Assembly (NCBI RefSeq): GCF_964204865.1
Contig: NC_135259.1
Coordinates: forward strand, 10,798,974-10,862,973
Direction: 5' to 3'
Source: Styela clava
Lineage: Eukaryota; Chordata; Ascidiacea; Stolidobranchia; Styelidae
Length of the DNA stretch: 64,000 nt
Of the stretch, positions 4,964 through 64,000 are shown one piece after another. The notes under the pieces were generated by a model. The model was not told the DNA's origin. It saw only the letters and a list, made by a program, of their open reading frames with translations, and did not search any database. The position numbers and the translations under genes were made by a program. Position 1 is the first letter of the stretch; every line of letters starts with the position of its first letter.

Positions 4964-7900
4964 ATGTCATTTCGTCTTGCTACGTTTTTGTTGATATTCA
5001 GTCGAGTATTTTTGTCATTTGCTCTTGAATTCAAATATTCAGAAAATCTGGGATCTGATGTTGCTTTATCATGGAACTTTGCGAACGAATCAATAACAAT
5101 AAAGGTAATAAAATTAAATATTTATACAGAAGTTCCTTTAAAGAACTAAGCTAAACACTACGATTTGAAGGCAATACAATAAAAATAAGAGTGAACAGTA
5201 ATATAGTGTTCACATGTAGTAAATATCAACCAGATAAACCTTAAAATTGTTACAGGCATCTCATTCTTAATATTGAATTTTTAGTTTTTTTTAGTTTTAC
5301 TTATATTTTACGAGACCTTACCCAAAACATGCATCAATAAGTTTTTTTTTAATCTCATTAAAAACGGTATGATTTACAATCCGGGGTCTGTTCGAAATCA
5401 ATTATTTTTTTGTACTAGCATTCAAAATCGTTCTCTCAAAACGAGATTTGAACTCAACTTTCTCAGCTTTCACGAAACTTTATTAGCGCTAATATCGTCC
5501 TACATAAAAATGCAAGTTGGCTGTTACCACCTGCAATTACGTGAAAATCCCACCGACCAATACATTTTCAGTTAGAATTCATATTTTCATGATGATGTAG
5601 GTGTCAGCACCAACCAAAGGATGGATCAGTATCGGAATTTCGCCCGATGGAGGTTTTCCAGGATCAGATGCATCTATTGGTGGTTTGAATGGCAGTGGTA
5701 AATACGTCGAGGTATGTAATTTAATAGAAAAATGAGGTGAATGAAAATTGGAATGTTTTCAACAATGGTCAAAACAGCTATTTATATATATATTTGCATA
5801 ATGTATGTGCTAGTGGACTTCTAATTTCAATAACCAGTCGCGGAATTAATTCGAAACGTTTTGAAAACGTCGTACAAAGAAAACTAAGAATTTTCAAGTT
5901 TTTATAAATAGATGTGATTCGTGGAAGAAGTATATAAAAGTTGCATGTCTACTCGTCATTTATACATCTCTTCTGATTTACGATTAAGTTTAAAATGAGT
6001 AGCTTTTAGAACCCTTTCTCAAATTTCATTATTTTTGTCAACACAGCATAACGTCAATCGGAAAATGATACCTATAGGGCTGTATAAGTATCGGATTTGA
6101 ATAAGAAAAAAGGATTTTCTCGACGCTCACTCCTACATCAATACATAGGAATAACATTTTAAAAGAATCTCCGAGATAATAATAGTTAATCATACTGCAA
6201 TATTCAAGATGTTTGGACAGTTACGGCATAAAGTCACATTCTTATTTAGTACATGCAATTTAACAAAGCTTTTGTGGAGATTAGAGACGCTTATTTTGAC
6301 ACTGAATTGATGCAATGCCAAAGTGTCAAATGATTTTTCCCAAAATCAATCTTTGCTATTATCAGTTTGGACCATATAAACTAGACAATATAATATCATT
6401 TTCTGTTAATCTTTTCAACCTTTCAACTGGTACTCCATATTATACAGGATGTATACGGGCCAGAAACAGGCGGTCCGAAACCTGACGAATCTCAAGATGT
6501 AGAAATTCTTTCTGCCGAAGAAAACGATACATCGACGACTATTATCGTGCAAAGAAAACTGAAAACAGGGGATCAGAATGATATTGATATTCAGGCTAGT
6601 AAATAACACATTAATATACCAATGTTAGCATCAATAAAAATAGCTTCAAGGTATGGGGTTTCTAAATTTTTAAATGTGACTAAAAGTCTTGTACTGAACG
6701 AGTTGTTGAAAGCAGATCGCATTTTGCCAGTGTTTGGAATTTGGATTATGACTTTCGCGATTAATTTATCTGTGTATTTGAAACAAAAAAGTTTTACACG
6801 GCGCGCGGTGTGACAATAAACTCCGGCCTCTTAGGGGGCAAATGGCAAATGCTCAAAATTATGAATATTTGGTTTGTCTGCCTTGGCAAAGTAAAAATTG
6901 ACTTTTCGTGTCAATATCCATCTTCAATACTGTTTGCAGAGAGGAAATCTATATGTACTGTGGGCTTATGGTAGCAGCGATGTCTGGGGACGTCCAGGAC
7001 CTGGGAGCCGACCAAACCAGCGAGGTATGAAATAAAGTTTTATTTGTCTTATATGTTTATTTAAAACAATATATAGTGTATACTAGAAGAAGATAACTGT
7101 TATATTACTTTTGGCCTAAACTGAATATTTCAAAAATTGCAAGTGAACGAAATTGAAATAGGAAAATTTAGTTTCTCGTAGAGCGATAGAATATGTTCAT
7201 CCTCATTAGATTCCAATTATATTAATATTCTCTTGTTTATCAGGTGTTAAGGAAATGGTACTGGTACCAGACACAGATGATGGTAAGGAAACCATAAATT
7301 CTGTCTTCAAACAATTAAAATGCTTAAGAGAAGAAAACGATTGAGGGCAAGATTATTGGCAAAAACATTAATATACTGTGGCCAATATATTTATTTTATA
7401 TAAAAAATGGTGAAAATTATGCTCCCACTGATTTTTGTAATTTTGAGAAAGCATTTTTATTGGGGGCCCTATATACCCATTATACAGTTTGTAGGATATT
7501 TTATTTTATGTTTGTGTCTATTTACTTTTTATTACCGCACCACGTGATTTATTCAATATTTACTGCGATTTTATAGTTAAGATAGTTTCACCGGCAAAAT
7601 AAAACGGAAAATCAAAATGTATTTACGTTTAAAAAGTCAATAGTTAAATCCCTATCGAAAGCTAGTCACTACTTAGGTATTATAACAGATATTGTATTTT
7701 GCAGTTAACTTCATACATACAACTATGCTAGACGAAGAAAAAAAAATTTCACTGAAATGGTACTACACCGATGAAGATATTACTTTCAAGGTAATTTATA
7801 ATAATACCACTAGAGGTGTTTCATAAGTTGAACACTACTTTAGCAACTCAATTTTGTATTTAAATGAATGTCATACAATGTTCCATGATTTAATTTTTGT

Positions 7901-10900
7901 AAAAAAATATAAAAATATAAAAGAATATAGGATTGAAAAAATATTTCATACAGTTTTTAGCGCCAACTACTGGTTGGACGGCTCTCGGATTTTCTCGTGA
8001 TGGAAAGTTTCCAGGTTCAGATGCTTGTATAGCAGGAAGAAAAGATAACATGAATTATGTCGAGGTAAAGAATTGTATTTTTTAAAGCTTTAGAAGTTAA
8101 TGTTGAGAAATAAAAGTTTGTACTATGTAAATCAAGTATGAAACACAACCACAAAACGATGCTCCCGAAGTATGCGAACCAATATGGCGGACATCGGAAC
8201 GTAGAATGGGTAACAGGTTAGGGTTAGGCCATAATTTTCCTTATTTTAGTCCCATTATCATTTCGAAGACTAGCCAAGAGCCTCCCGTAGTATTTATACC
8301 TAAAATTATGGCCTAACCCTAACCTAGTACACATATTACATTCCGATGTCCGCCATCTTGGTTCGCATACTTCGGGAGCCCCCACAAAACTATATTAAAA
8401 CTCATTCAAATTAAATCATTAAGTAAAGAATAATCATGCCGTATTTTCTGAAATTGACTGAAAACAATTTGAATTTTTGTTGAATGTTGAATCGCATCGC
8501 TTCTATTCGGAATTCGGAAACTTACTTACACCCCAAAATGTTACGATAAATCCTGAGTAGAATAAAATAAAGAGTTTTATAAACGATATAAAGTAAACCA
8601 TATATAAAAGATATAGATACTGATCAAATATCTTTAAACCATCTTTCGAATTATTGAAGTTGTTTTTTATATTTTTCTTTAGTACAGACTTAATCTCCCT
8701 GTAAAAAAATTCCAATACTATATTCATTTCTTAGGATGTGTATGGGCCAGAAGAAAACGGTCCCCCTCGAGTCGATGAATCACAAGATTATGAAGTTCTT
8801 TCAGCGAAACAAGGTTCCGATTCCACTACACTTGTAATAAGAAGAAAATTACTCACTGGAGATGCACATGATGTAGATATAAAGGTGTAATTTTGAGTAT
8901 AATTTCAAAAAGGTTCCATACTAGACACTGTTCACATAATTAAACTAGTATAGGTTTATAAATATTTGCAAAATATCATGTTTTATCGTGTACTTTAAAG
9001 CGTTAGACGCGCTTATTTCATAATTACAGGACTTGTTGTAAAATGCGATTTTTATTGAACAACTGTTAAAAGTTGGAATTAATGCTGTTTATTTTGAATT
9101 CACAATATAAAAAATAAAGTTTTCTGAATGTCAAACTTGCTCAAAATAACAAAATTGCAGGCCGGAAAGATTTTTGTAACGTGGGCATTTGGGAATATTG
9201 ATGAATGGAAAGGTCCGGATCCTTCAACAAATCCTGTCGAAACTGGTATGTTTTTGTTGTATTGGATTATAATTTTATTTCAGATCTAGATTTAAATATT
9301 TGTATAATAATATATAAAATATCAAATCCTGTAAACTCCAGCGAGGCTACCTCATGCGTAATTCAACATTCTACAACCACCGGAAAATAGCCTTTTAAGA
9401 CATATACAGGGTGATTGAAAGGTAACTCCCTATTTTAAAAAAACTATAGTTTATTTTTAAAATATAATTTCTACAATTAATGAATATGAGAAGGAAGTAT
9501 AATGCATGGGCTTATTGAAAAGTAACTCCCTATTTTAAAAAAACTATAGTTTATTTTTAAAATATAATTTCTACAATTAATGAATATGAGAAGGAAGTAT
9601 AATGCATGGGCTTTTATTTAAAATTCAATATGGGCGCCTTTATTTGCCACCAGCTTCTCAAGTCGACCAGGAATCGCATCAACTGATTTCGCAAGAAACT
9701 CTTGCGGGATGGAAGTCATAACTTCACGTATTCGCCCCTCAAGTTCTTCCAAATTTCTTGGTTTGGTTGAGTAGACTTCCTCTTTCAGCCAACCCCAGAG
9801 AAAAAAGTCGCAGGGTGTTAAGTCAGGACTTCTGGCAGGCCATTCGTGCGAACCGCGACGACCCATCCATCTTCCAGGAAATTGAGCATTTAGCCATTCA
9901 CGAACAACAATAGCAAAGTGTGGAGGAGCTCCATCTTGCATGAAAATCAAATCTTCAATATTTTCCCAAGCACTGATAATTGGCCAAATTTCATCTTTCA
10001 ACATAGCGAGGTACCTTTCGGCATTCATGGTATCGCGAAGAATGAAGGGACCCACAATCCTATCAAAAGTAATTCCACACCATACCGTTACTTTGGATCG
10101 ATTTTGCATTTTTTCACAGGTAACACGAGGATCTTCTTCCGCCCAGTAGTGGCAGTTATGACGGTTCACAAATCCACCTATGTGGAATACAGCTTCATCA
10201 CTCCATAGAATATTTTTAAAAAGGTTGGGCCAATCTCTAAACCAAGCCAACATTATTTCACCAAACTCCATACGAATGTCAAAGTCTTCTGCAGAGAGTG
10301 CTTGACAGTAATGCGGCTTCCAAGCACGCCATTTAAGCTCGTTTTTTAGCACATTACGTACACAATGAAAGGAGAGCCCACTTTCTCTTGTTGCTTGACG
10401 AATTGACTTATGTGGGCTACGGGTAAACATTTCTTTAGCAACTTGCACTACCTCAGGATCTCTGGATTTGGAAGGACGACCGCTTCTTTGAGTATCAGCC
10501 ACAGATCCTGTGGTCATAAGTTTTTTATGACAATTCTTGATCGTCTTCGGGTCAATTTGGGCATGTTTTCCCTTAATAGTTCTCCACCATCTTTGCACTT
10601 GAACAATGCATCCCCAAACTTCATAACGCGCGGCTATCTGGGCACGTTCCTGTAGAGTAAGACGTCCAGTCATTTTTGTAGGGTTTTGAAATAAAATAAA
10701 TTTGAAAAGATTGAAATTGAACAATATTTAAACAAATCTGAAAGGAAAACAAGAACATAAATTAAATTGCCATATATTAAGTAATATATACACATAAATT
10801 TAGAAACATGAAACATGATATAGCATTTGAATAAATTGTATTTATTTTAAAATAGGGAGTTACTTTTCAATCACAATCAATCACAATAAAAAAAAACCTA

Positions 10901-11151: not shown

Positions 11152-11248
11152 GTTTTTGTGATTATACCAAAAAAATATCAGAAGAATTTATCCTATCATC
11201 AAATGATACCGACCAGAAATTTTGCATTGTATTATGAATTTTCATGTA

Positions 11249-14139: not shown

Positions 14140-15435
14140 ATGAGGTATTGTTTGGTTAATTCGAGATGTAGTTTCCTACTGTTTCTAATGTTTATAAGCG
14201 CATCTGTCTTTCCTTCTATTCTTTGTGCAAGAAGCGATAAAGATGAATACGATTATATGGAGGATTTGGAAGATGATATAACTTTATATTGGACAGTAGA
14301 CCGAGATGAAATAACATTCCAGGTAAAATTCCTAGAGAATACTGATGTTATAAAAATGCTTAAAACGTAAGATAAGCGCATGAATTTTATTTATGAACTC
14401 TGTGTACTGAGCAATAATTCTCTAATAACAATACACATTTAGTTTTGTTACAGTTGCATGATTTTACTTGCAGATATCGGCGCCCACCACAGGATGGATT
14501 GGGTTTGGTTTTGCTGAATCAGGAACAATGGTGAATGCTGATGTCATTATGATGGGAGTGAAAAGTAATAGAGAATACGTTTTGGTGAATGGAAAGTTTT
14601 TGAAATTCAAAATTTTAAATCTAGAATTTACCATACCGTGATTAAGAGAACCATTAACTAATCGATAATTTGTAATATTTATCAATTCGTACAATCGTGA
14701 TTTGTGATTTGATTTTACGATTCTTGTAGTACTGCTATGTTTTTGAAAGAATGTACCTAATTTTTTGCTTTTCTTCAGAGATCAATCAATAAGGTCCAGT
14801 GCAAAACTTTTTTTTTTGTTTTAATAGGTATTTGATGTTTTGCGTTTTTTCTAGTTCAAATAAAATTTTATCATAACATCTGATAACATGTTAGGTAAAA
14901 ATAAGATAATAGACAGAAAAAAAGTTATATACTAGCATTAAATACATTTTAACGTCTGAAATATGTAGTAAAAAATAATTTTTTTTAGGATGGATATGCA
15001 TCAAGAAATGGAATACCATCACGAGATTCCGAACAAAATGTTGAAATATTGGATTGGAGGGAAGATGACGGAAGGACGACTATCACTTTCATGAGAGAAC
15101 TTGAAACTTACGACGTTGATGATACTGATATTGAGGTCTACTTTAAATTGATTATCACAAAGATAACGATATTTAGCTCGTTATTATTTTTCTTGATTGC
15201 ATACAGTAAAACCTTGAGCAATATTATTCTCTTCATTTATTAATTGTATTTGAATTTGATTAATCTCAGTAATATTATGTACTTACCTTACTAGTTCACA
15301 AGGCCCACATGCTTAAAAGTGATCCTATCGCAAATTGTCTATTACAGGAAGGTTTACTCAGAGTTATATGGGCATATGGTGAAAATGATATAGATGACAA
15401 ACTATCTTTTCAAGATTATCACAAAGGAAACAGCG
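14140..15435 (+). other. Gene 2 signal peptide and DOMON 1
   Basis: Exons 14140-14322, 14474-14584, 14989-15135, 15348-15435. The core reads APTTGWIGFGFAESGTMVNAD and the third exon starts DGYASRNGIPSRD. The fourth carries VIWAYG and ends DYHKGNSG. The Met (GTM) and His (DYH) are both present. Confidence 0.8.
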
Positions 15436-18400
15436 GTATGTTGTTGTCAATTACAAAATAATTTTATACCTTGTTTATTCCACCGAATTATTTAAAAATA
15501 GATTAAAGCATAGTCCCTTCTTTTTGTTGTCCGACAAGTTATTGGCGACAAGTTGTAGCATTTTTAACTATCTCTGAAACGTTATCTAGCAATCTATTTT
15601 TATCCTTTATCAACGCAAAAGCTTTTTTTAAAACGTAATGGATCGCTATAAAAAGTAATAATTAGTTGTAAAAAATATGAGCTTGACGTAAAGTTAATTA
15701 GCACTTCTGTTCTCATACAAATTCCTATTCTGCTTCACTATTGAATGAATATTGCCATTTTGAAATTATCACAAATGAAATATTAATGAGTATAATCATA
15801 AAATCCTATTTTACAAGTAGTTAAACAAAAACGATTACGCTGTGTCGAGCAACTTTGATCAATTTAAATTAGAAAAAATAATGCCCTGTGATATATTACC
15901 ATTATTCCGTCAAGTCTGAACATTCATTTAAACCATTTTTTACCGTACCCTGCTGTGAACAAAAAAATGTATCTGATAAGTTTTGAGTAAACTTGGAAAG
16001 TGGGAATTGTCATCATTTGGAAATTCTTTCCAGATAACTGGTATTTTCGTGTCTATATATTTCTACATTGTCCACGCGCTTTGTTTTGAACTATTCGAAA
16101 CTGAGAATTATCAAATTGTGATACAATAAATCATTATGTAAATCCCCTTTCCACCAGGTTCAATGCGCTTAGAATTGATACCTCCTGATGATGACGATGA
16201 TGATCGGAGAAGTGAAGGTGATGACGATGACGATCGGAGAAATGAAGATGATGACGATGACGATCGGCGAAATGAAGATGATGACGACGACGACGAAGAT
16301 CGTAAGAGAAATCGTAATAAGAATCGCAATAATAATCGAAGTCGTTATGAAGATGATGATGATGATGACGACGACGAAGATGACCGAAAAAGAAATCGAG
16401 AGAAAAATAGAGATCGTCAAAGTAGACGTAATAGAGAACGAGATAGAGATGATGACGATGACGAGAGAGAAGAATATGAGGAGAGTCCAACGGGTATGTC
16501 TAACGAAATAAAAAAAGATCAATTTATATGTTTTATAAATGTGTTTGATAGTGCATAACATACCCGCTACAGTTACGATGACAAATATTTGGCACAATTA
16601 CTGTAGTTGCATACAATAACTTAGCAAATGACTATACACGATTGTTGAACATGCACATTCCAAACTTCACAGGGAAGGGTGATGAGTACTTGGATTGGGA
16701 AGATACCGTTTACCTGGAATGGATTTACGACGAAGAAACAATCTCATTTAAGGTTCACTGTTTATTTGTGTTTATTATATGTTCCTTGTATGACTTTATT
16801 CTTTTTTTTTTCAGGAAAAGTAATAAAATTGATAAATATTGGAACATATTAAGCATGCTTCAAATATAAAATCTCACCCTTTTCTCATTGCTGATGCTTT
16901 TAATTTTATGAATTTATTATATTGCCTTCTTCCATGTCATACCAGTTGACTGCTCCGACTAAAGGATGGATGGGGTTTGGAATATCAAGAACAAAAGACA
17001 TGACAAGATCAGACATTATTATAATCGGAGTTGCAGATGGGCAAGGATACACCATAGTAAGTTAAATAACTTTCCATATACATAGTAGTAGCATTACTCA
17101 ATGATTCATTAATCCATGTTTTTTGTACTAGAAAATAGAATAGAGTTATTGTATTATTGTAACATAGTTTCAAATAAGTGTTGCTTTTAATTTTTCAAGG
17201 ATGCGCATTCTTCCAAGAATGGTGTGCCCGAAATCGACAAAAACCAAGATGTCAAGTTAATGACAGCATACCAAAATTCTACCCACACATCGATTTCATT
17301 CCAAAGACCAAAAAAGACATCAGATGACATTGAGATTACGGTTAGTTGACTTACTATTCATGGTTTACTCGAAATAGCTGATAACAAGAGTTGCTATGAA
17401 AAGGAGTTTTGTCTGTGAAGCTATTCCACGGGAGTATTGCGTGAACATGATAGAGGATAAAATCTATCTAATATTTTTTCAATGCGTTATGAATATAATG
17501 ATAACCAGTGCCTAAATTGTCCTGCCGTTTTCTTGGCTACCAAATGTGCGTTTAACACTATCATATTCCCGATCACAATAATTATAATTTTAATCTACTC
17601 ATATTCCTAATTCTAGAAAGGGTATCACAACGTAATTTGGGCGTATGGAGAAAATGATCTTTATGCTTTGCCTTCGGGAAAAGATTATCATGGAAGAAAA
17701 AACAGAGGTACTGTTGCATGATCTTTTATTGTTGATTTGCCTGACCTGTTTCGAAGCAATCTTCATAAGAATTTACATTCGTTTCCTGTTGCAATTTAAA
17801 TTCAAAAAGAAGTTTGTAAATAGTTCCAATGACATCAGTAGTTTTTTATAAAAAATAATCCCAACCGTAATTTTTATTAAATGTCGCCGTTTGTTCCTCG
17901 ACTTATTTATTATATGATTTGAAAATTATTTTCATTATCGTAGATTAGAGACAGTTGTGTGTGTAGTCACTACATGCTATTTTGTTCTTCAATTATCAGC
18001 CCGTATGCAACTGCTCAAATGCAATGACAAAAAAGAACAGAGTTAGCTAAATGAAGATATCAGTAATTACTTATCGATCTTTAGATCGGTAAGTATGTTG
18101 ATAGATATTTGTCTGTTTGTCTGTTAGATGCACGCGATATCTCACGAAGGCGTGGTTGAATCTGCTCCAAATTTTGCATGTGCATTCATTATATCTCGGA
18201 CCAGAAGCCTGCTGATTTGGATGAATTATGTCGTATAATTAGCGAGGTATTAATTAATTAGTGATGGGACACGCGGTGTCACTATAGGGTCATGAATCGA
18301 AACCGCAGTTTCGATCGATAAGTCTTCGGTCTCTAACCGATATTCTCGTTTTTTGTTTAATCCGTACATTATTTCAATAGGTTCGACTAGAATCGAGTTT

Positions 18401-21400
18401 ATAAGAAACATATTGGACTGGGACAAAAGTAAGTAGCAAAACAATATATTAATAATAAATAAAAAATGGACCTCCAGAAGTATGCGCGCCAAGATGGCGC
18501 ACAACCTGAACATAGTATGTGTGTACCGGTTGGAAGGTCAGGTTGGCGACATCTTGGTGCGCATACTTCTGCAGCACCTAAAAATGATATATATAGTCCC
18601 TATATGTGACCTGACATTAATAAAATTAACCTGTTAACCTACTCATGAAACCATCGTGATTTTAAGAATTTTTCGTTGTAATCGCCCACCAAAACAGGGT
18701 AACTTTTATAAAGTTGCCTGTTCGAAAATACGACGAATTATGAGAAAATTTGACTATATGTATGGCTGGAAAGATATCATAACATCGCAATGTAATGCTG
18801 GTCATGATGAAATTGAATATTACAATTATTGCAAATTACAATTACTCACAAAATTACAAAAACATTGTTATATTCAGTTGCGTTAAAAAGCCTTGACATC
18901 TCTTCTGAGAGTTATGAATAGGTATGTCTGAATAATTCTACCTTTTTTAGAATTAGAACAAAGTGACGACAGCAGTTACAGTGAGAGATCACACAGAGGG
19001 AGGGATGATAAATACGCCGATCATAAAAGTCAGTTATTCAGATTAAATCTCCCATTACATGAGACTTTGGATAAAGAAAAGGGCGTTGTACTTCAATGGG
19101 CGTATGACAAAACTCATATTATATGGAAGGTATTTTTCAAAAATGTTGATTCAAAATTACCTTCCGACTTATTTATATTTTTGACACATTTATGTTTTTG
19201 CTCATACTTTACCACTTTTTCGTTTCTGGCGTGTGTAATTTTTTTTTTCAATATTGCCTTTTCTATGCAATCATTCTGATTTTGTCCCCAGACTTTTAAG
19301 TCATAATAATGTAGTAGTGAGAGTAGGCGTTTTGCAAACTGTTTTGAGCAGTTATTGCAGCAATTACTCTAAACAAATATTTTTATAAGTTTTATTACAT
19401 GTAGTTAAAAATTATGTTCTTATATTATTGCGTTTTTCAGCTTTCAGTACCAACACTTGGATGGATTGGTCTTGGATTGTCTGATCGCGATTCTATGGTC
19501 GATGCCGATATCATTATGATGGGTGTAAAAGATGACGGTCGTCCATACGTTTTAGTGAGTAAAATTTATTAGATGTATAAGGTTTTGTGATTTTGAAGAA
19601 GAAACGGTAAACATCTAATTTTTACAAGACAAAAATGCATCTGGCGTATGCTAAAATCCTTAACTGCAAATTACAAATAGAAAATCGTATTCCAACTGGA
19701 AAATACTTGAACGGTGTGTACTTTCATTACTTCGACGACATTAGTACAACTTTTGTAAATTTTGTGCAGGGTGCAAGGAAATATGAGAGTTATCTAAAAT
19801 AGCTTTGCAAATTAAGGCGATATCGCGGTATTTCAGAAGCTTGAGTATTTGTCTTCTATGGCTATAATTATGGTAGTTAATTAGAAAATGTTCCGCAGTC
19901 TTACTGCAAACATTACAAAATAGCCACAATGCGCTAAATAATTGGTTTCCGAAGAATTACCACATTTTTGTTGGTTTATCGAAAGTACGCTACAAGACCG
20001 CTCCAAACGTCAAATCAACTTAACTTGTTAAGGATAAGTCATTAACTTGTATTAGTTCAGAAAGCAATGAGTTGAAATGACTATGACTATGACGTTGACT
20101 ATTTGTTGTTATCAATTTAGGATGCTCATGCTCTTGCGAACGAAGTTCCAAAACGAGATCAATCTCAGCAAATTGTTTTACTTCAAGCTACACAAAATGA
20201 TTCTCACACAACGATGATCATAGCGAGGGCAAGAAATACTAGAGATATTGACGACAAACCCATAGAGGTAAGTGTCAACCCCGCTCACATTAGCAGACAA
20301 AAATTTTTATAAAAAAAATCATCTAAAAATATAGGAATCAATTCACTTTTCACTTGTAACAAATTTTTTGGAAATTTTTGGAAAATCGGAACATATAGAA
20401 TTAGATTAAAAAAGTATATATAATCAAATTACAGATTTTTTTAGAACATCATTCATGTCATTTTTCATCTAATTATTTTATTTTTACAAAATTTTTACAA
20501 AATTCTGATATTCTGATAATCTTTTTACAGAACAGGGAAATTTATGTTTTGTGGGCATCAAGTCGGTTTGATTTAGATGATGAACCGACAAAGGCGGATT
20601 ATCATTTTCGCGAAAAAGGTAATCCACTGAATGATTGTATTTGCTAATCGGTTAAACCAGTAATTTGCACTATTTTTATGTTTTAGCTACTTGAGAATTC
20701 TTAAATCTTTTCATGTTGAAAATTCAAAAATTACATGAATTCAACATTCATTCATTTCACTTATAAATAAATTGCTTTATTTTAAATTGAATATAGGTTT
20801 TATAAGTTGTTTCAAATCTGAAAGTCTTACTGCGCAACACCATTTGAAAATGATTCCGTGACATAGATTTTGCAGCTTTGATACCTCCCTGTTACACTTG
20901 TAGTTTCCTAGGAAATTGTTAGTCCATAAAAAAATTTCGAGAGGAATTTTACCACTTTACGAATTTTACAGGAATTTTTCGAATCCTACTTGATTTATAT
21001 TGAAGTTTTACTTACCATTAATGTATAATAAAGGGTACATCTTTTACTTCAGGATATAAAAAATTGAATTTTATTCGGCCAATACCAGAGGAAGAACTTG
21101 TTGAATTAGAACGTAAGTTAATAATATAATTCGTAGACTAATAATAATTGTTCACCTAATTTATTAATATTCATTTGTTAAATTTGTGAATTACCAAATA
21201 CGATCTATTCGTATCAAATGCAGGTATTTGCACGACTTTTATTTAAATATGATTCAAATATATTACGCAAGCCCCTGAAGAAGATGAAGATATAGACCGA
21301 GACGACGATGATGATGATGATGACAACTTTGATGATCGAAACCGCCAAGTAAACTCTCCAAAACGTAGATCTTCGCCTCGTACATCTACGCCAGATCGAG

Positions 21401-24400
21401 ACAGCGATTCTCGAAAACCAACATCAGTATATTTGGATGAAAACGAACGAGTTCTGCTTAGATGGAATCACGATGGAGATTCTATTGTTTTAGCGGTTTG
21501 CTTTTAATGAATTTTGCAATAAGCATCATTAGTACCAACAATATTATATTACGCACTCACTATCTACGTAATTAAGATTTAATGGCATCATAAAATAAAA
21601 CAATAAATATTGATTTTATCGTAAATGAAAATGATACCCTCCGTTTTGATATATTTAAATATAAAATATATTATTTTTTTGTCTGTGTTGCAGATTGCTG
21701 CACCAACTCAAGGTTGGGTCGGCATCGGATTCTCACCTGACGGCACCATGAGAAATGCAGATATGATAATAACTGGTGTAAAGCGATCTAAACCATATGC
21801 CCAGGTACAATTAATAATGTAAATGCATAACTGAATAAAAAATAGATTGATTTTTTTTTATAAAGTATATCAATGTGATTTTATTATCTGATATTATAAA
21901 ATAATAACTTCGTGCAAAATAGAACTTAATTATGTATATTTGTTTGAACTTGGACATATTTATCGCAGGATACACATGCCACAGAGAATGGACCTCCTAT
22001 TGTAGATGATACTCAGGACGTACAAATTTTACACGGAATAGAAAACAGCACCTATACAGCAATTGCCTTCAAAAGAGCTCACGATACATTTGATTCAGAT
22101 GATTACATTATTCAGGTAACATATCATCACATTCTTTCAGATAAATGAACCTACCTCTAAAACGTGAGATGAATGTTTTTAATTTGCAACAGAGCTGTTG
22201 AGATTTAAAGACATTTCTGCTGAAGTAATATAAAATATTATGCGAATAATAAACTTCTGTATAACAGGGAGGAAGCATCAATGTCATTTGGGCGTTTGGT
22301 GACGATGATCTTGATGATGAACCGGACTCAAGTTTCTATCATTCTTCAGATAGAGGTGAATGGAAACTTTGATCAAGAATGGATGTATTGGTCAAGCGCA
22401 ATAAAAAATCGATATTGTCACTTAATACGATATTGAAAACGTAATTGAGTGAAATTTGTAGCCAATGAGAGCTTTTTACAACAACCTTTTTTTACCAATA
22501 AATCAGACTACTTTGGTAACGTTGGATTGTATATTAAACTCGACTTCTTATCGCGTACATTATGATTACTTGTGTTTCAAAATAGGTTTATGTTTCGTAA
22601 AATATTGGTGATACTTCCAATAAAAAGTAAGTAAATGATGTACAAAATATCACTAAAAAATATATTTTATTAGGATCAAAAAAGGTCGTGTTGCGTCCGA
22701 ATGCTCCTGTTCCGGAAAGTGAAGAGAATGATATTGATGATGAAGAAGCTGATAGAAATCAAGACGACAACAGATCTAGTAACATTTTTCGTTGACAGCC
22801 GTTGATAATTTTATCATTGAAAACCTTCGAAATCAATACCTTCGAAATAAAGTGCTATCAATGTTTATTTTTCTCGTTTTCATACTAAAATTCCAATTTT
22901 GTAACAATATATAGAATTTTGGTTCTGTTTAAAAAAAAAATTTGTGAAGTGATTTAGTTAATATAATACATGTATTCATAGTTAGGCCAAATAAAATAGA
23001 ACAAAAGTTACATTTACAAAAAAAAAATTTAGACCTAAAAATACGAAATGCACAATTATGTCTGATGAAGTTTATTTCGAAATTAATCGATAATTAGGTT
23101 GTAGTCATCGATCAAGATTTTACAAATATGAAAAGTATGTTTATTGGCTTGCCCTGATTCGAACAACGTATATGCTTGTAGGTAATGGAAGCGATGCACC
23201 AAAATCGAGTTCTGAATATCTAGATCATGACGAAACGATTAAATTAGAATGGAGCTTGAAGGATGAATCAATTATATTCAAGGTGAGAGCTTTTTCGCTT
23301 CAATCTTGTTGAAATAACATATTGATATCTTCTTGTTATGCTCGAAAATTAGACATAGCTAAAAAAGTATTCAATGAAGTAAGAATGTTTTTATCCACCT
23401 GTGATTATCAGCTTTCAGCGCCGACAACAGGATGGATTGGCTTAGGTTTTTCACGGACTCGTACAATGAAAGATGCGGATCTCATCATAGTTGGTGTTGC
23501 AAGAGATGGCGAACCATACGTATTTGTAAGTTCAGACGTAATATATTCTTAAAAAAAGATTCGATGAATTTTTTCTGGTGATATGATATGAGAAGGATTT
23601 CAAATATAATTTAAGTATAAAAATTCACACGACCTATTTAATATTATGAGAACCTGTTTGGTTAATCCAATAAAATGTCAAATCCAATATCCGAAAACTT
23701 GTACTAATTTCTTGTTCCGAAAAGATGTCTTTGTAATTATTCTTTAAATTTTTAGGACACTTTTGCTGATGAGAACGGAGTTCCCGAAGAAGATCGATAT
23801 CAAGACGTGAAGATTCTACGCTCTTCAGAATCTCGGGGTGAAACTGTTATCGTTTTCCAACGAGAGATCGATACCATGGACTCCTATGATAATAAGATTC
23901 CGGTAATTTTTTTTGTTTGCTGCACTACATGAATATTTGAGGCAAATTCAAAACTCAACGCTGAACTTGATATAGATTATTCATAGAATATTTTTCATAT
24001 TAAATTAAAACACTTTCTTCAAAAAAAAAAGTCTTCGCACTGTTCACGCGATAACTATATATATTTTTTTCAGTTATTTATTTTAGCAAGACTTTTGATA
24101 TGCAAGAATTGAATGAAGAAATACTGTAATCAAAATGAACCATGTCGTATTTGGTGAAGTTAATATTTTCGAATTAAGATTGACTAGATAGCGAGAGGTT
24201 CAATCGCTGGAGATATTGTATTTTTTCCTAACTTCATACATATCATCTAACCAATATAATACATGTTTAATACCTTTAGTAGAGCTTTTCAGTTTTCTGA
24301 TGTTTTATGCAGGAAGGAAGACTTAACGTGCTTTGGGCGTATGGGGATGATGACATTGGATCAGATATTAGAAGTTCAGATCATCACGGAAGGAACAGAG

Positions 24401-27400
24401 GTAAAACTGAATTGATTTTCATGTAGAAGTTTTATGAAATTTTCATGAAATTGCATCTGCAAAAATCTACCGATTACTTTCAAATTTTATATGTTTTTTG
24501 TTCAAAGTTCAGCCTTGTTATAGTTTCAAAACACTCTGACTTTTTTAAGACTAATTAGAATATAATTCAATATTATTTGGTGAACAATGCATATTACACG
24601 ACTCCTTGCAATAACTGCAATGTTGCATTTCACATTGTCAAGTAAAAAAAACTCATCTAAGTTTAGTTATAATAATGTATTTCATTTTATGTAAAAAATG
24701 AACTTTTAAATTAAATATTCATATGATAATATGGCCTCTTTTTAACATATTTTTTTTAGGCATAAAAGTAATGTCATTCATACCCGGAGAAAACGATGAT
24801 TTCATTAAAGACGTTGGTAAGGATCATTTAATTCATAACTTATGAACAGCAATAGTTTTTTCCCTAAAACACAGCTTGGTTAGTTATGTATGCTATGCTA
24901 TGTATGTATGTCTGTATGCTGGGGAGTATGTACCTTACATTGCACGTTTTTCTTCTTTAATTATTTTACATCTCATCTTTTACCATAGTCCATAAATATC
25001 TGCTGCATCTTCTAAGATTATTTTTATGTATTGACTGTTTAACTATTTCATGGAAATTATAAAGAGCCAACAAGAACTTCAATAACAACTACAACAAACC
25101 GGGCAGTGGTGCCAACGCCTGTCACATTCAGTAAGTTACTGTTATGATATATTTATTGTTATGATGGCGATAACATTTCGATAGTAGTAAATAACATCTA
25201 CCAATTCTAAGTGGCTACTATTTCCCAGTATGAGTATAAGTATAAGATATTTCTCTTTGATATGCCAATAACCACAATTAGGACAGAATTCACTAGAGTG
25301 TCGCATATACGAATCCAAGTATTTTATACGTGTCAACCTCGAAACATTCAACCTTCAACTACATGCTGAACTTTTTAGACTTTATGTTAATAAAATATGA
25401 CGATTTTGATTATTACTCAGACGAGGATACAACAGCAGAACCTCAATCAAATGACTCTGATGATCCCATCAGAGTATTTCTAGATGACGATGAAACGTTT
25501 GAACTAGTTTGGACTATTGAAGATGGAAACATAATTCTTCAGGTCTATTTAGAAAATAATTATAAAAGACTAGTGCAAGTTTGGTGATAGAACGATATGC
25601 TGTTACCCAATTATTCAATTATCCAAAAGTGTTTTCAACTTCCATGAAAGCGATTTTTTTAAAACTTAAATGAGAGGTCGAAATGCTATTGTAGGTACAA
25701 CTTGACAATCATTTTATGTAACAAACTAGTCAACTAACGACTTTATACTTCTATTCAGGTAAAAGCACCTACGTTAGGTTGGATAGGAATTGCAATTTCG
25801 GAAGACGAACGAACGACAGGAAGAGATTTCATGATAGGGGGTACTGATGATGGGGAAGCATACGTATATGTATGTTATATTTATATTAGCATTGATAATG
25901 TAGATATAATAAAAACTAAACTGCAGATAGACATCGACTTGGTTATCATAGACAAATTTTTATATGGTACTGATTCTTTGAAAATTATTGTTTATTTATT
26001 GTTTGTATAATATATTTATCATTGCAGGATACATTTGACAATGCTGGTATTCAAACGCTTGATAATTTTTATACGGTACTTATTCTTTGAAAATTATTGT
26101 TTATTTATTGTTTGTATAATACATTTATCATTGTAGGATACATTTGACAATGCTGGTATTCAAACGCTTGATAAAATTCAAGATGTTAGTTTGATGGTTT
26201 CATTTGAGAGAGGAGATGCAACGACAGTCGTGTTCAAAAGATCTTTAGATACAAGAGATGATGATGATCAACCTGTTCGAGTAAGTTCTGCTTTCATATT
26301 TATTAGATTTAATTTATTTTAATAAATCGTCAGACATACCTAATATCAGCATTACGTTAACATGCCATTCAAGGTATTAGAATATTTTATGGAGTTTCTG
26401 AGAGCACTAAGTTGCCAAAACTTGAAGCATCAGTTATACAGAATACCTGGAAATAGCTTTAAAACACACACATCTGTATATATATTAAAATGTTTCATTT
26501 TGCTCGATTTTTGTACAGGAAGGCAAAATGTATATTGTCTGGGCATACGGAACTAAAGATATGGTACAAGAAGACATTGCTACGTTTGATTACGCTAAAA
26601 TAGGTAATTATTACAAAAAGATCGTTCGCAATGTATATGAATTTATAGAACCACTGTACCTGAAAAAAGTCCTTGTAATAAAACTCTATTTACATACATC
26701 CAGGATCAAAACAATTGGTGCTCATACCAGGAACTGAAGATGAAGAGCCCCGAGGTAATGTAAAACAATCCATCGCTTGAATTCACCTTGAGGAATATTG
26801 ACAAATTAAGCTGTTTTAGTCACTCAGGGAAATTGACCACTCTGGAATTTTCTTATTTTTAAATTATTTTTTTTGTTATAAATTAGGGATTGTGCACCAG
26901 TACAATCATAATTACATTCAAAAGCACTTTTAGGCCTTGTAGTTGTAGATAAAATAGGAAATTTAATTACAAATAAGGGCAGAAGTATACTAAAACAAAT
27001 TCTAAAATTTAAAGAGAATAATTTTTGTACACAAGATTGAATAAGTAACTAAAGTATAGCAGTAGCCTATGAGAACTACACGCAGACTTATTATGTAGTC
27101 ATTCAAATGCTTCAAATTCAATTTACAAATAAAGTCCACCACTGTGATAGTTCACGTTAGTACTGATTGGGTCGTAGCTAATCTCCAAAACATGGCCGAT
27201 TATTCTGAAGAAATGACAAATCATATGTCAAAAATGTGTTCCAATAAATTACAATAAATATCAAAGTTTTGGCAATACATCTAGTCTTGAATCCCTCAGA
27301 AAAAAACGAAAATAATAAAAGTACGTAATAGATCAACGTTTCCCAATCAGGAAAGGAAGGAATTTTAATATTTTTGACAATAAATTTTGCTTTGTATATT

Positions 27401-44870: not shown

Positions 44871-44911
44871 TGTTTACCTGTCACGATTGTTCTACGACCA
44901 TAGCTCTAAGG

Positions 44912-55517: not shown

Positions 55518-57317
55518 ATGAGAGTCACAAAAGTACTAGTCATATTGATGGTGTCAATTTATGGAGTTCTTGGGGCAGTTCTGCCAGATTCGTCAGAATC
55601 TGTTTATGATGGATCAATGGAATTGGCCACGGATGTATATTTAAAATGGAAAGTAGAAGGAGACTTTATACTTTTAAGGGTTAGTAGTAAAAATTTTAAA
55701 ATTGTTTAATGTAAATAAATGAATATCTTTAATCAAACGATATTCTGTTGTGTTCTATGCTGTCCTCGTTTTGTATAAAACCAGTTAAAAAATGTAATAT
55801 TTAAAATGGGCAATAAAAATTATACCTTATGCATAATTCACATATATTACTATGAATTTTATTTAAATATATACAGAATCAATCAATTTTTAAACCCCTT
55901 TCCAATATCTAATTTACATTTAAATTATAAGCGATCTTCTAAATATGATTTTTGAAATTAGTACGCGTAATCCCGTCGAAAGGCTTCCGGGATTAAATCA
56001 AATTATCTAAATCAATATATTGTGCACCGATTTTGAAACACGGAACCGTGCTCAGTTTTTTCAATATTACAAAAGTTTTATTATATTTTAAACTTGTTAT
56101 ATCGTTTCAGCTCGACTACATGACGACAGGATGGATTGGCATTGGATTTCCTAAAACTACGAAGGCACACGGCATGAAAGACTCTGATATCATAATGGGA
56201 TGGGTGAATAACAATAAAGGATATGTTTTGGTAAGTGCAGTGAGCATACTGGGACACTACTTGCAAAGTTTCTTAGTAGTATAAGTTGAATTGGTTAGTC
56301 AAACGTAATTTGTTATCGACGTTATGTCTCATTTCACTATGGCAGCTTTCTTTATTACAAGATTTGTATCATTTTATTTTGATGCAATTTACATTGAATT
56401 GAAAATGTCTATGTTTGGGCTATGTAGCAAAAGTGTTGTGTTTTTAAAGGACGCATACGCAAAGAAGAACGGAGTTCCAGAAGTAGATTCCGCCTCAGAT
56501 GTTGAGATCATCAGTGCAAAAGAAGAAGGGGGTTTCACAACCATGGTTTTCAAGAGACCAATCGTTGCAATAAATAAAGATGACGTCACAATTGAGGTAT
56601 AATTATTCAAACAATTTGCGCAAATTCTGTTTCAATTAAAAATCCCATACAAATCAAATGTAAGATGATAAGAGTTGTACTCGATTATATTGTAACGGAC
56701 TTTAAATGAGGAATTTAAATGTTTAAATGAGGGGTGTTTTAAAATTTTTTAACGAATTAGATCTTCAGTTTCCTATATTCCCAAATATAATTTTAGATAA
56801 CAATAGATTATAGGTTATTTGGTAAACTCCATTTGTAAATTACAGGTTTAGTTTACATAGATCTTAAAATAATGAATATATTACCACAGCAATATTGCTA
56901 TTTTATTTGCTGGTAAAAAACCTTGTTATACCATTTTGGAAGAGATTAGTCATAAAACTTATAGCTTGCCTGTATGCATTAAGTTCCAATATGCAACTTG
57001 TTCTCAGAATCTCAGATTTTTTTGGAGATGCGAGAAAAATATACACTGTATTGTTGGTAGTCAAGAAACTCGATATATTTGAATATGTGATTCCAAACTT
57101 GATACGATAATCATCCTTGTAGCAAAAATTTATTTCATTTGAATTATCCAAAGGACCCGCATTTAGTTGCAATGTATTAAATTTTTGTGGCAAATATGGT
57201 TCATTCTAAATTATTTTTAAATTTTGCAGAAAGGAGAAATTGCAATTATTTGGGCGTATGGAAACATAGGTAGTTTGAGTGAAACTATTTCGGGCGCTGA
57301 ACACCACTCACAAAGAG
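55518..57317 (+). other. Gene 3, signal peptide and DOMON 1
   Basis: The first four exons. The second reads LDYMTTGWIGIGFPKTTKAH then GMKDSDIIMGWV, with Met present and an insertion before it. The third starts DAYAKKNGVPEVD, and the fourth has IIWAYGNIG and ends EHHSQRG (His present). The GWV ending is shared with gene 4. Confidence 0.78.
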
Positions 57318-60300
57318 GTAAGAAAATCAAATTACCAACTTCAAAGGTTGGATAATTTCTAAAATAAGCACTTTACGATCAATTACACGGTAAAAAATTT
57401 TATATACATACACTTGGACAATATTTTATCTGAAATGTGTGCATATATATGTTTTATGCAAATTTTATTCTAAATTAAACACCTGAAACGATTTATTATT
57501 GAGCAATTCAATTCTGAAATAGAACATTGACCATAAATTTTTTTTATTTTTTTTTTTGCATTCGAACAATAACATTTCATTATTGTCAGGTCAGGCAAGA
57601 ATAGCTTTGATACCTGCGGAGAACAAAGTACGTCCTCGAGGCAAAATACGTAAGTTTAGTTACGGCTTTCTAATCTTAAAACAATTTTAAGCAATTTTTG
57701 TCAGATTGAATAATCTTTAAACAAAGACGTATTTGACGGGTATTTGAAGTGGTTGAATAAACTCAAAAATTATATCAGGGGATATTTTTGCATTGCGAAC
57801 CACTTGGTTTTGCCAAAGCCGTCCCAATTATAAAAAGAAAAAATTTCTTTTTAAATGTCCTAATATTAATAAAGTTGAAGACTTGGAGGTATGACACTTT
57901 TCTTTTTGTGTACGCGATAGTATATCCGTGTTCCCAGCAAAAACAAACTGAATTTGAATTTAATTTTGTCCATTGATGGCAGATAATACTAGTATTATTG
58001 AAATTAAATGAATAATAATGCTTAATTTTATTTGCTTTTGAAGCGATAATTGAAACTCCCCTTGATCCAAATACTCCAACAAGCGTCCAGAAGCAAGAAA
58101 GTGTGACACCAAATGAACACGGTAAGGTCAACACACCAGTGTCCCCAAATAAACCTAGCAAACCTATGTCCCCAATTACCCCAGGAGAACCAAAGACACG
58201 AGGAGGAATTGCGAGACGCAGCAAAAATATATATATAACTACCCCAAATGAGGAGAGCATACAAGAAAAAGACACAGCTGAAAATCAAGAAAAGAAGAAT
58301 GCCACTGAAATTATTCCAAGTGAGTCAGATAATGTCAATTCTCCAACAACACCCGGTGGATATGACAAGCCAGTAAGTCCACGCAAACCCAACATACATT
58401 CCTCGAGTAAAACAAGCACTCCCGTATTATCAGAAATCCAAACCAAAACTGCTAAAGGAAAGTCAAACAAACCTAAATCACCGATGCCGCCAAATAAAAC
58501 CGACAAACACAAATCACATAAAAGTCCCGGAAAAGCTGCCAAATCGCCAATGACACCAAGCAACAAAGATGCTTTGAAAGGTAAACCAGAATCGGCAATG
58601 ACTCCAATTGATCTCGACAAACCCAAATCCCCAATGACTCCGGATGGACCCACCAAATCTAAATCAAAGAAGACACCAAGAAACAAAGATGCTTCAAAAG
58701 GTAAACCAGAATCAGCAATGACTCCAACTGATCTTGACACGCCCAAATCCCCAATGACTCCCGGTAAACCCACAAAAACAAATTCGCCATTGTCCTCAAG
58801 TGAATCATCAACCCCGGGTGTACCCACCAAATCTAAATCGAAGAAGACACCAAGAAACAAAGATGCTTTAACAGGTAAACCAGAATCAGCAATGACTCCA
58901 ACTGATCTCGACAAACCCAAATCCCCAATGACTCCGGATGGATCCACCAAATCTAAATCGAAGAAGACACCAAGAAACAAAGATGCTTCAAATGGTAAAA
59001 CAGAATCAGCAATGACTCCAACAGATCTCGACACGCTCAAATCCCCAATGACTCCCGGTAAACCCACAAAAACAAATTCGCCATTGCCCTCAAGTGAATC
59101 ATCAACCCCGGGTGTACCCACCAAATCTAAATCGAAGAAGACACCAAGAAACAAAGATGCTTCAAAAAGTGAACCAGAATCAGCAATGACTCCAACAGAT
59201 CCAGTTGAGCCTGAATCACCAATACCCCCGAGTGAACCAATTGAATCTGAATTGCCAGTGACACCAAATGAATCCGTTGAAAGCGAATCTCAAACATATC
59301 CAAGTGATTCCCAACTCGAAGAATCGCGATCGCCAGCACAATCAGGCGGGTATTTCAGATCTAAAAAACTGGAAACACCAAAACCCCAGATACAACGTCA
59401 CATGATACTCAGGGGAGGATATAGAGGTCTTGATCAAATGTATGATGACGCAATGTCAAAATCTACCATTTTAGACGTCGAACGAAATATAAAGTTTAGT
59501 TGGAATTACAATGATGAATATATTGTATTCGAGGTAAGGTTTTGTTATATATTGTATCCTTAGTTGACATCGATGGTTAGGAATCCCCGTCCCACCATTT
59601 TACCCAGTCTGTAATCGATTGACCCAACCGAAAAAATACCGGTTTTTCAAAAAATATTATCTCTTTTCATATCAGAGAAAATTTGTCATGAGATCCCGCT
59701 AATGATTAGTATACGACACTCAACGTTATATGACATAACTCGCGCTGACAGATTCAATAAACTTTTAAATAGTGATAATTCATTGTTTTTGTTCGTTACT
59801 TACAGGTCTCGATACCAACTCGCGGTTGGATAGGTGTAGGTTTCGCGCCAGGACCGAATATGGCGGGTGCAGACATCTTTATTGCGGGAATAAGAAGAAA
59901 TGGAGTATACGCTTCGGTATAGTATTGAGAATTAAATGATTCGTCAGAACTCTCTCCCATCATATTTATGAATAAATAAGAATTGCAAATTAAAGAATGT
60001 TGAATTTAATTGAGAATATATTTTGTATTAGTCTTTTGTACTTTTTTCTAATTGGTTAATTTTTGTAACTACACTTTTCCGTTTGCCAAATTTCGTTTTT
60101 ATACAATTGAAAATATCAGCATCAAATTGTCCCAAATACTCGATTGAGACGCTATATTTAAATCACTGCTGATATAATGCTTCTACTCGTGAAATTTTAC
60201 AAAAAAATTAAATTAAAATGATATACTAAAACTTTTTTATCGTAATTTTACAAAAAAAAAATTTAAATTAGAATTATATACTAAAACCTTTTCGTCGTAA

Positions 60301-62069
60301 AGTGCATATTTTTGTCAGTATTTAAAAATTTTCTAAGGTTGTCAACGATGAAGGCATAATTTTTATTTTTATTCAATCCCGAAAAGTAAGATATATAAAA
60401 GTATTTGATTTCGAATATTCTTTTTTCAGATTAAAAAAATCTTCAGTAATGATTCAGATAGTTTTAGTTGTATAATCATAGGTTATTTTTTCATAACAGT
60501 TCAAAATTTGTAGGTCAGGCATTCTGCTTCTGTCTATGTTTTGGTAATAGAACTGATGATAAAAAATATTTCAGTGAATGTGTTCGATATAGTCAAAATT
60601 AATGATTGGAATGATATGTTACATAAGAATTTTGTATTTCTAAAGTCTACTGTAGATATAGGGAGAAATGACATAGATCGCGAACTAGTTCTATGCACCG
60701 TTCCGTAATACAACTATACAAATGGACGCTGTTTATATTTCATATGATTTCGCAGAGTTTTTGATGTTATGATTAAGTTTGTCAAGTAATATACATCGGC
60801 AAAATTTGAGAGTAAATGCAAAGTTTAGATGTCAATTTTGTTTTTACAGGACGCGTTCGCGTATAGAAATGGGAAACCGTCGATTGACGAATCTCAAGAT
60901 GTCCAAGTTTTGAGATATCTGGAGAAAGAAGGATTCACCACTGTTATGTTTGCAAGGAAAATTGATACTACCGATGAAATGGATTTAAAGGTGAATACTC
61001 GACATAGTTTTCTCTGTGTATATATTGGATAATATAGAGTCCTACTTCAATAGCTCCTAAGGTTGAGATCTAAGCAGTAATCATAGGGCAAATTGACAAA
61101 CATAATAGGTAAAATTTTATCTTATCCTCAAAAATAGCGCAGCACTCTTTGAGTGCAAGATAGCTGGAAAGTATTGAGCAAATTCAAAAAATTAATAGCC
61201 TCGTTCGTCGTTTATATATTCATGGCATTTATAATTCAAAAACAATGGCTTTGATCAAATGAAATATATTGTCTATTTTCAGATTGATGGCACAAGCAAA
61301 TATGTTATTTGGGCTTACGGGCGAGCTGATATGGCGCTAAAGCCTAGGGAATTTTACCACGGTATGAATAGAGGTAAGTCAAACAGTTTTATGTTATACT
61401 CGTATGTGGTAATATCATCCCATACCATCCATCAAATATTTGTAAGATTATGTGTGGCATTCAATATTACCGTTATCTCGGTAGTATATTTATTTTCATA
61501 TCACTCCATATTCATCTGGGTGATGCCCATTCCCAATGTACGTATTTTTAAATCTTATCCACCATCATCTGCTTTCAGGTGCAAAAATGCTGAATCTCAT
61601 TGATGGGTCTGGTAAGTTGTTAATATATTTGCACTTTAGTCTTTTCTACTTCTTATTTAAAGAGATTCTGTTTAATCAGGAGTCGGAATGACCCTCGTTC
61701 GACTAAATATGAAATGCATAAATTTTGATGAATCATAAATATAAAAGCAATTTCAATGTATCAATTTTCAATTGTCATGGTTTGTTACTCAACCTCTTAA
61801 GGTCATCTGTGACCAGCGGCAAATAATTATATATAATCTTACACCACGAGAAGAGACAGAAATTAAAATGTGAAAAAACTTTGATTTCATCTTTATTTAA
61901 ATATAAACAAAAGTTATTAGTGTTTATTTTCTCACGAGTGTATCTGAATCCATTTTGCGTATAAAATAATTAATTATTATAAATGAAAACTTGATATTTC
62001 ATCACAGGCGGACTTCCGACAAACTTTCCAATGGCGCCACTGTCTACCGTTCCAGGAAGAATAAAATGA
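55518..62069 (+). CDS. Gene 3: secreted protein, two DOMONs separated by a repetitive Pro/Ser/Thr/Lys linker (834 aa)
   Basis: Eleven exons: 55518-55679, 56111-56230, 56450-56596, 57230-57317, 57590-57649, 58044-59533, 59806-59916, 60850-60990, 61283-61373, 61579-61611, 62008-62069. The total is 2505 bp ending in TGA. Residues 1-20 are a signal peptide (VLVILMVSIYGVLGA). DOMON 1 is followed by a 1490-bp exon encoding about 470 residues of SPMTP/KSKSKKTPR-type repeats and then the first strand of DOMON 2. The tail GGLPTNFPMAPLSTVPGRIK has no transmembrane helix. Both domains keep Met and His, so each could bind haem. The linker is cysteine-free and basic, and may be phosphorylated, glycosylated or an extended spacer. 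Role unknown; an extracellular matrix or tunic protein is one possibility. Confidence 0.78.
58562..59190 (+). repeat. Coding higher-order repeat, 294-bp unit
   Basis: AACAAAGATGCTT (NKDA) recurs at 58562, 58682, 58856, 58976 and 59150, with spacings of 120, 174, 120 and 174 bp. Each 294-bp unit (98 aa) therefore holds a 40-aa and a 58-aa subunit. Both share ESAMTPTDLD, KSPMTP and TKSKSKKTPR; the longer one adds NSPLSSSESSTPGVP. All spacings are multiples of three, so copy-number change keeps the frame. Confidence 0.92.
59400..61373 (+). other. Gene 3, DOMON 2
   Basis: End of exon 6 (NIKFSWNYNDEYIVFE) plus exons 59806-59916, 60850-60990, 61283-61373. The core reads IPTRGWIGVGFAPGPNMAGAD (Met present), followed by DAFAYRNGKPSID and VIWAYGRADM, ending FYHGMNRG (His present). 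Confidence 0.8.
59917..60849. other. Large gene 3 intron, no feature recognised
   Basis: AT-rich, with a local direct repeat around 60190-60300 (ACAAAAAAATT/AATTAAAATGATATACTAAAACTTTT appearing twice). Nothing else is visible. Confidence 0.5.
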
Positions 62070-62715: not shown

Positions 62716-62723
62716 TATAAAAG
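62716..62723 (+). promoter_or_regulatory. TATA box, candidate promoter of gene 4
   Basis: TATAAAAG followed by CCTGGGGCGTACATTGAC, 422 bp ahead of the gene 4 ATG. A TTTTGCTCCAG at about 63103-63113 could end a 5'-UTR intron. The arrangement resembles genes 1 and 3. Confidence 0.45.
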
Positions 62724-63137
62724 CCTGGGGCGTACATTGACTCGACGAAAAAAAAAACGAGATATCTGCGCAAACTTTTAAAAAAAAAAAAAATTTTTTA
62801 CAGAACTTGCTTCTGAAAGAAACACATCTGATGGTTTTGAAAGTAGTTCAGCTTAATTGATTTGTCACTGTGTAAGTGATCCACGTACATAGTTTTTTAA
62901 GTATGTCAGTTTAATGATGTTTTCTTTGTCAAAGTTTTACAGCAGTTCAAGTTGAAGTTGTTAATCTATTGACACTATCTGCAAATTAAATCAGGTTGTA
63001 TAAAATTATTTCTCAGATCATAGTTTTACAAGTAATATCTTAGAAAAGACAAAAAGGGCTCACGAATAGTTGTTACTAAAAGAAAATAAATATAATTTGT
63101 AATTTTGCTCCAGGGTCAACTCCGCTAAATAGCTAAT

Positions 63138-64000
63138 ATGGCAATGGATTATAAAATGTTAATTATATTTCCATTGTTCTTTTCTGTGGTTTGGGGAGGA
63201 AGAGGCGCACCATCACAGGAAATAACATATGACGGATCTAAAGATTTGTCCTCTGGTATAAATGTTATGTGGAAAGTAGAAGAAAAGAGTATAGTTTTAA
63301 AGGTAAAATGCCGCAAGGGCGAAATGTTTTCAAATATTTCTATTTTTAATTGCAATTGCGTTGATGAGTTGAGGTAAATTTAAGCCTTCACTCTGACTGT
63401 ATTAAGTTAGGCATACAGCGAACCAAAAAGTGTCTAATAATTCCAAATATAGTAGATAAGGCATTTGCTTTTCTCTGATTGAATGTGTGTAAACACAACA
63501 AAAAAGTAAAGGCACTGTAATGAATTTTTTAGAACTGATACACGATTAATAGTGGTTAGAAATCACACCAGAGTTATCCCTGTTTTCATACTTTTATGTC
63601 TCACTTTCACATTTTGCTAAAATTATAGACAATCATACTATTCCGTACAACCCTTCAAATTGGAAATTTCCAAATATGTTAAAATGCTGTTTCTTAAGAG
63701 CTACAAATCTCCAGAAAAATCTGTTTACAGTATGTATATGTTAATTCCAACATTTTCTTAAAGAGATGGTGTTTTGATTGTTAGATAAATTACTTCAATT
63801 TTCTTTACGGGATGTGGTAAATTCGATTTTCAATTTATTGAAAGAAGTTTTTTATTTATTTTTTCCTCTCACGACCACTTTTTTACAACAGTTGAAATAC
63901 AGAGCAACAGGATGGGTTGGCATTGGATTTTCAAAATCAAAACATCCACAGAGTATGGCTGATTCTGATATCACAATAGGCTGGGTTACTATGGGCAAAG
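63138..64000 (+). CDS. Gene 4: DOMON protein, 5' part only (cut by window end)
   Basis: Exon 1 (63138-63302, 55 codons) encodes a signal peptide (MLIIFPLFFSVVWGG) and the first DOMON strand (NVMWKVEEKSIVLK). Exon 2 begins at 63892 and reads LKYRATGWVGIGFSKSKH, then QSMADSDITIGWV, to the window edge. It is closest to DOMON 1 of gene 3, sharing the YDGS-x-x-L start, the inserted residues before Met and the GWV end, so genes 3 and 4 are recent paralogues. The putative haem Met is present; the His position is outside the window. Confidence 0.78.

Follow-up and report, generated by a model that had tools for sequence, protein, structure and literature searches.

Seventeen complete DOMON domains, arranged in three gene models, were found in a window of 64,000 nucleotides of the Styela clava genome (C13:10798974-10862973), and the majority of them carry a loop methionine and a C-terminal histidine at the sites where published cytochrome-type DOMONs place haem b. 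Homology gives good support to these two residues as the ligands of haem b, as both the motif and the spacing are those of the published proteins. The copies with both residues are probably b-type cytochrome DOMONs, and the second of the three genes would then encode an anchored string of 13 beads with eight or nine predicted haems, acting as separate carriers or holders.

DOMON copies, exon plan and gene models

The genome is of the animal type (376.6 Mb, intron-rich), and the longest open reading frame in the window has 486 codons. Profiles built from a few exons recovered the 17 complete copies, all on the forward strand, and every one of the spliced domains passed the DOMON profile PF03351, scoring 40.7-91.7 bits where the cut-off is 32.7. 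The same exon plan was observed in all copies: E1 (99-120 nt, phase 0-0) holds the Met loop, E2 (141-150 nt) is joined in phase 0, and E3 (79-91 nt, phase 0-1) runs to the Gly behind the His motif; most copies also have a short E4, similar to the last strand. The AG/GT splice sites are in order in all 17 copies save for E2 of gene 1 domain 1 (d1), which needs a GC donor and apparently uses the one at window position 6594.

The first exons of gene 1 (4964..5104, +), gene 2 (14140..14322, +) and gene 3 (55518..55679, +) each join a start that, judged by eye, resembles a signal peptide to the first strand of d1. Within gene 2 such starts were seen by eye only ahead of d1, and from this together with the exon phases we infer that d1-d13 belong to a single transcript. 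Its last exon (41773..41858, +) holds a hydrophobic C-terminal stretch followed by a stop, by eye a membrane anchor of the TM or GPI type, so the gene 2 product resembles an anchored, secreted ectodomain.

Candidate acceptor sites, mostly ambiguous, delimit the exons that combine a linker with a first strand; on this basis gene 2 has such exons of 16-168 codons, and in gene 3 they reach 496 codons. Several linkers are clearly acidic (D/E-rich) or Thr-rich or S/T/P-rich. A very long, low-complexity linker exon of gene 3, rich in Ser, Thr, Pro and Lys (58103..59533, +, from a candidate acceptor), leads into the first strand of d2.

Methionine and histidine in the DOMON copies

The 17 copies and the residues at their Met and His sites had been given in the initial annotation, and both were recovered when re-derived from the spliced exons. 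Measured from E1 to E3, the copies with Met/His are d1 (14474..15435), d2 (16946..17707), d3 (19441..20618), d4 (21694..22355), d5 (23412..24400), d7 (28176..29428), d11 (36467..37427) and d13 (40712..41282) of gene 2, and d1 (56111..57317) and d2 (59806..61373) of gene 3. Neither residue is present in gene 1 d1 (5601..7024) and d2 (7954..9245), which have Phe/Pro, or in gene 2 d6 (25759..26603; Thr/gap), d8 (30562..31440; Lys/Lys) and the tandem twins d9 (32369..33075) and d10 (34265..35116), both with Ile/Asn, while d12 (38298..39050) has Met/Lys. A loop Met of the S-x-D-x-x-M type with a C-terminal His about 90 residues further on (92 in gene 2 d4) is accordingly found in ten of the 17 copies; six have neither, and d12 has Lys in place of the His. 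The spelling of the two motifs needs to be relaxed: the proposed GTM is literal in just five of the 11 Met copies, the rest reading DM, SM, TM, GM or NM, and YHxxNRG describes the His site as a loose consensus only. An 18th DOMON is cut by the window end, with E1 alone inside (63892..64000, +) and its Met kept; its E2 and E3 lie past the window, and it is Met/His when read onward.

Ligation of haem b by a Met/His pair has been reported for CDH and AIR12 and modelled in plants and insects. Met89 and His180 of Arabidopsis CRR, 91 residues apart, were modelled on haem (PMC10784552), as were M90 and H174 of HYP1, 84 apart, where a change of either residue impaired localisation (PMC10784544); AIR12 binds haem that ascorbate can reduce (PMC10784552). 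The DOMONs of insect CG8399 are described as keeping the Met and His of CDH, with the motif SXDXXMGXD, which those of DBH and of sugar binders are described as not doing (PMC10691727).

Against the CDH cytochrome profile (PF16010), five of the 17 copies gave weak matches at an E-value of 1 or better. The four such copies identified (d4, d7, d13 and gene 3 d1) are all Met/His, and the best match, that of d13 (E 1.2e-5), reached 25.6 bits against a cut-off of 27 and spans both ligand sites. The nearest DOMON in the PDB is that of DBH (4zel, E 2.9e-13), which aligns a Leu at the Met site. The PDB search, for which the queries were the bacterial profile and individual domains, returned only DBH or chance-level matches and no haem-ligated DOMON at a significant E-value. 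Nitrite oxidoreductase C was dropped as a relative, its E-value in the PDB search being just 0.72.

The proximity to DBH speaks for an alternative in which Met and His are conserved for fold stability, or as a site for copper or a small molecule, with haem absent from every domain. In DBH, whose DOMON is the closest one with a solved structure, the pocket is rich in leucine and a metal site is possible; haem was considered for that crystal structure, and the axial ligand was described as absent (PMC4846438). The present data, moreover, are sequences. The two residues, about 92 apart, are nevertheless retained together in bacteria and in this animal alike, the motif is the one at which haem b is placed in published DOMONs, and copies that have lost Met and His mostly retain the other conserved columns. 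Conservation for reasons other than haem is regarded as unlikely.

The condition of the copies without either residue can be seen from 23 other conserved columns, of which gene 1 d1 and d2, d6 and d8 have lost one or two each and d9/d10 five, compared with six in the Met/His copy gene 3 d1. Between d9 and d10, dN is 0.024 and dS 0.150 over 110 codons (dN/dS about 0.16), and with dN so far below dS these two copies, non-haem by prediction, are under constraint. General decay of the copies lacking Met and His was rejected, given that their columns are mostly kept, that d9/d10 are constrained and that the Met/His copy gene 3 d1 has lost more. The double-negative copies are probably not dead domains. 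The tandem duplication that gave d9 and d10 (window 31451-36300) is recent, its two blocks being 78% and 87% identical, introns included.

Joint loss and shared ancestry

Joint keeping or joint loss of Met and His in 16 of the 17 copies had been put forward as the signature of an axial ligand pair. The counts are right, yet they reduce to about three joint events, possibly one, and given the common ancestry of the copies "16 of 17" claims too much. Fisher's one-sided test gave p = 5.7e-4 for the 17 copies and 1.1e-5 for 41 copies of the wider cluster, in both cases by taking as independent copies that are not. As the copies are paralogues, a tree was built without the Met and His columns. On this tree Met changes five times and His four times, in three cases both on the same branch, and the joint losses occupy one branch each (the gene 1 stem, d6 and the d9/d10 stem). 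Since d8 and d12 are sisters (92/87), the replacement of His by Lys most readily dates to the ancestor of the two; d12 retained the Met and d8 lost it. When changes were scattered at random in proportion to branch length, three or more shared branches arose with p 0.0056. When conserved columns separated by more than 3 were paired, Met-His ranked first of the 176 pairs by shared fraction (0.5); another pair, F12-N48, also shares three branches, at a shared fraction of 0.33.

It is conceivable that the six copies without both residues descend from one non-haem subtype, whether or not the remaining copies bind haem, in which case the concordance amounts to about one event and says little on pairing. 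The AU test did not reject a single clade of all six (p-AU 0.216) or of the four gene 2 double negatives (p 0.497), and PGSD after the site is common to gene 1 d1, gene 1 d2 and d8. A single origin is at odds with the best tree and with 903 of 1000 bootstrap trees, which give the same five Met changes, four His changes and three shared branches, and the residues found instead of Met and His vary (F/P, T/gap, K/K and I/N); it appears rather improbable, though it merits some weight. For an independent-pairs test, the supported pairs were too few. As evidence for pairing of Met with His, the covariation is suggestive but not strong.

The wider cluster and bacterial relatives

Across the genome 80 DOMON matches were found, 46 of them in C13:10.66-10.90 Mb. 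The residue table covers the copies of this cluster, leaving out the 34 of the 80 matches that lie outside it as well as a broken DOMON (E1 at C13:10668239) and a lone E3 exon (C13:10662907); these two fragments are signs of cluster turnover. When 260 kb were read, 24 further complete copies were obtained, the 18th copy included, of which 23 are Met/His and one is Lys/His. The 41 complete cluster copies thus comprise 33 with Met/His, six without both, one with Met/Lys and one with Lys/His. The single Lys/His copy counts against the haem-ligand reading. Located at C13:10749157, it has Lys for Met with the His kept and lies upstream of a copper monooxygenase exon.

Upstream of the window there are five DOMON pairs, one of them including the broken copy, each followed by copper monooxygenase exons on the same strand; the stretch C13:10660743-10763397 (L014-L024) is made up of five such genes, with two DOMONs and then a copper monooxygenase. 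The Cu2 monooxygenase C domain (PF03712), which marks the DBH/MOXD1 class, has 52 matches in the genome, six of them in the flanking cluster and none in the window. Cytochrome b561 (PF03188), the partner domain in the CYBDOM class, has three genome matches, all of them on C9 rather than on the contig of the window. Most DOMON copies of this genome whose gene also has a copper monooxygenase domain keep both Met and His, which makes haem in such enzymes a testable question. The ten copies downstream of the window (P-U and V-Y) are all Met/His, and their order and similarity suggest two more arrays.

A scan of bacterial and archaeal genomes yielded five loci from 20 pattern matches, and PF03351 was present in 9 of 297, 19 of 124 and 2 of 47 genomes in three phyla. 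From 53 loci, 67 different segments were cut out. Eight were set aside: six stop short of the His, each of them with a Met, and two from L058 are weak and have no Met. The remaining 59 gave 54 after collapsing at 98% identity. Both residues are kept in all 54 of these complete bacterial domains (51 by script, and b30, b55 and b56 by reading the listings). The spacing from Met to His is 92-94 in 51 of the 54, and in two domains the Met is displaced in the alignment by a short insert. Such retention in relatives is better support for a ligand pair than the covariation.

In four of the five bacterial loci scanned for neighbours (L002, L004, L052 and L055), SCO1 and COX1 come directly after the DOMON gene; at the fifth (L054) the scanned neighbour is an unrelated membrane protein. 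The four loci have a single DOMON gene in genomes of the Deltaproteobacteria type, and the product is possibly an oxidase-linked b-type cytochrome. A locus from Cloacimonadota (L005, 2816-5383) encodes five tandem DOMONs in one protein, all Met/His. A second His (H73 of A3) is invariant in ten aligned bacterial domains (L001-L005) and has no counterpart in the animal domains.

Known DOMON systems and the predicted role of gene 2

The loop Met and C-terminal His would hold haem b as in CDH, AIR12 and CYBDOM proteins. Gene 2 would give a secreted, membrane-anchored protein of 13 DOMON beads with linkers that are often long and disordered-looking, in which the eight Met/His beads would carry haem, or nine beads if d12 uses Met/Lys, and the beads with neither residue would be retained non-haem DOMONs like those of DBH. 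Haem b on Met and Lys is described for ethylbenzene dehydrogenase gamma (PMC8840923), and by analogy d12 may still bind haem, so that eight or nine haems in gene 2 are plausible. Ethylbenzene dehydrogenase gamma and its kin resemble d12 in the ligation that Met/Lys would give, but the gamma protein is a soluble subunit of a molybdenum enzyme, and its family had no significant sequence match among the domains scanned.

The CDH cytochrome domain and plant AIR12 share with the window copies the DOMON fold, the Met and His motif for haem b and, by prediction for the window copies, an extracellular location, but have one cytochrome-type DOMON per protein; CDH also has a flavin dehydrogenase domain. 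Proteins of the CYBDOM class (FRRS1/SDR2, Drosophila CG8399, Arabidopsis HYP1 and CRR) have the Met/His pair at similar spacing, whereas their DOMONs, mostly one and sometimes two, are fused to a cytochrome b561 that the window lacks. Ferric reductases are described as carrying one or two DOMONs (PMC3591440). As for DBH/MOXD1, DBH is the nearest DOMON by sequence and genes with two DOMONs and a copper monooxygenase occur in the same cluster, although the copper domain is absent from the window and DBH is without both ligands. MOXD1 has both ligand residues. The Cloacimonadota protein is similar in carrying several Met/His DOMONs per chain, but it is bacterial, has Gly/Thr-rich linkers and keeps Met/His in all five copies. 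In the open-licence literature, partly among the matches listed, no proteins with many DOMONs were found.

Gene 2 had been proposed to be an extracellular redox array. As a conducting chain, whose haems would pass electrons among themselves, this is hard to reconcile with linkers of which several are long and acidic, Thr-rich or S/T/P-rich, and with a haem series interrupted by d6 and d8-d10. Up to five Met/His copies are consecutive (d1-d5), and as the acceptor sites of the linkers are mostly ambiguous, these may be short in places; a conducting array is all the same very improbable. Given the long linkers on several beads and the presence of beads predicted to be haem-free, an ordered wire is unlikely and separate carriers or holders fit better. 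Outside the cell the beads would most likely work individually, as carriers of single electrons or as holders of haem, and might exchange electrons with ascorbate, metal ions or the neighbouring DOMON-copper monooxygenases.

Many pockets could also bind haem for its own sake, for transport or defence. With no copper monooxygenase in the window and b561 not nearby, there is no known redox partner in the same protein, which would suit a haem store or scavenger. Bis-ligated haem, however, usually serves electron transfer, and four of the five scanned bacterial relatives sit in oxidase gene groups; a store or scavenger is considered improbable, and separate carriers or holders remain the preferred reading.

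More tentatively, and with slightly less than even confidence, it is proposed that a single anchored extracellular animal protein holds non-covalent haem b in eight Met/His beads and one Met/Lys bead, with haem-free beads interleaved, and that the downstream arrays are of the haem type as well. Such a protein, a multi-haem b protein of tandem beta-sandwich DOMONs, would differ in build from multihaem proteins that are helical or of the c type, and its bacterial counterparts have at most five beads. If this is true, a large multi-haem b protein exists outside animal cells, and its haem-free beads would serve as internal controls in asking why a DOMON binds haem. The presence of Met plus His or Lys would offer a simple sequence rule for sorting DOMONs.

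Other coding sequences occur between the three genes. An ORF resembling a DDE_3 transposase (window 9618-10724, -) lies between genes 1 and 2, and two intronless frames (43131-43883, -, and 51500-52309, -), collectin-like in combining a collagen repeat with a C-type lectin domain, lie between genes 2 and 3.
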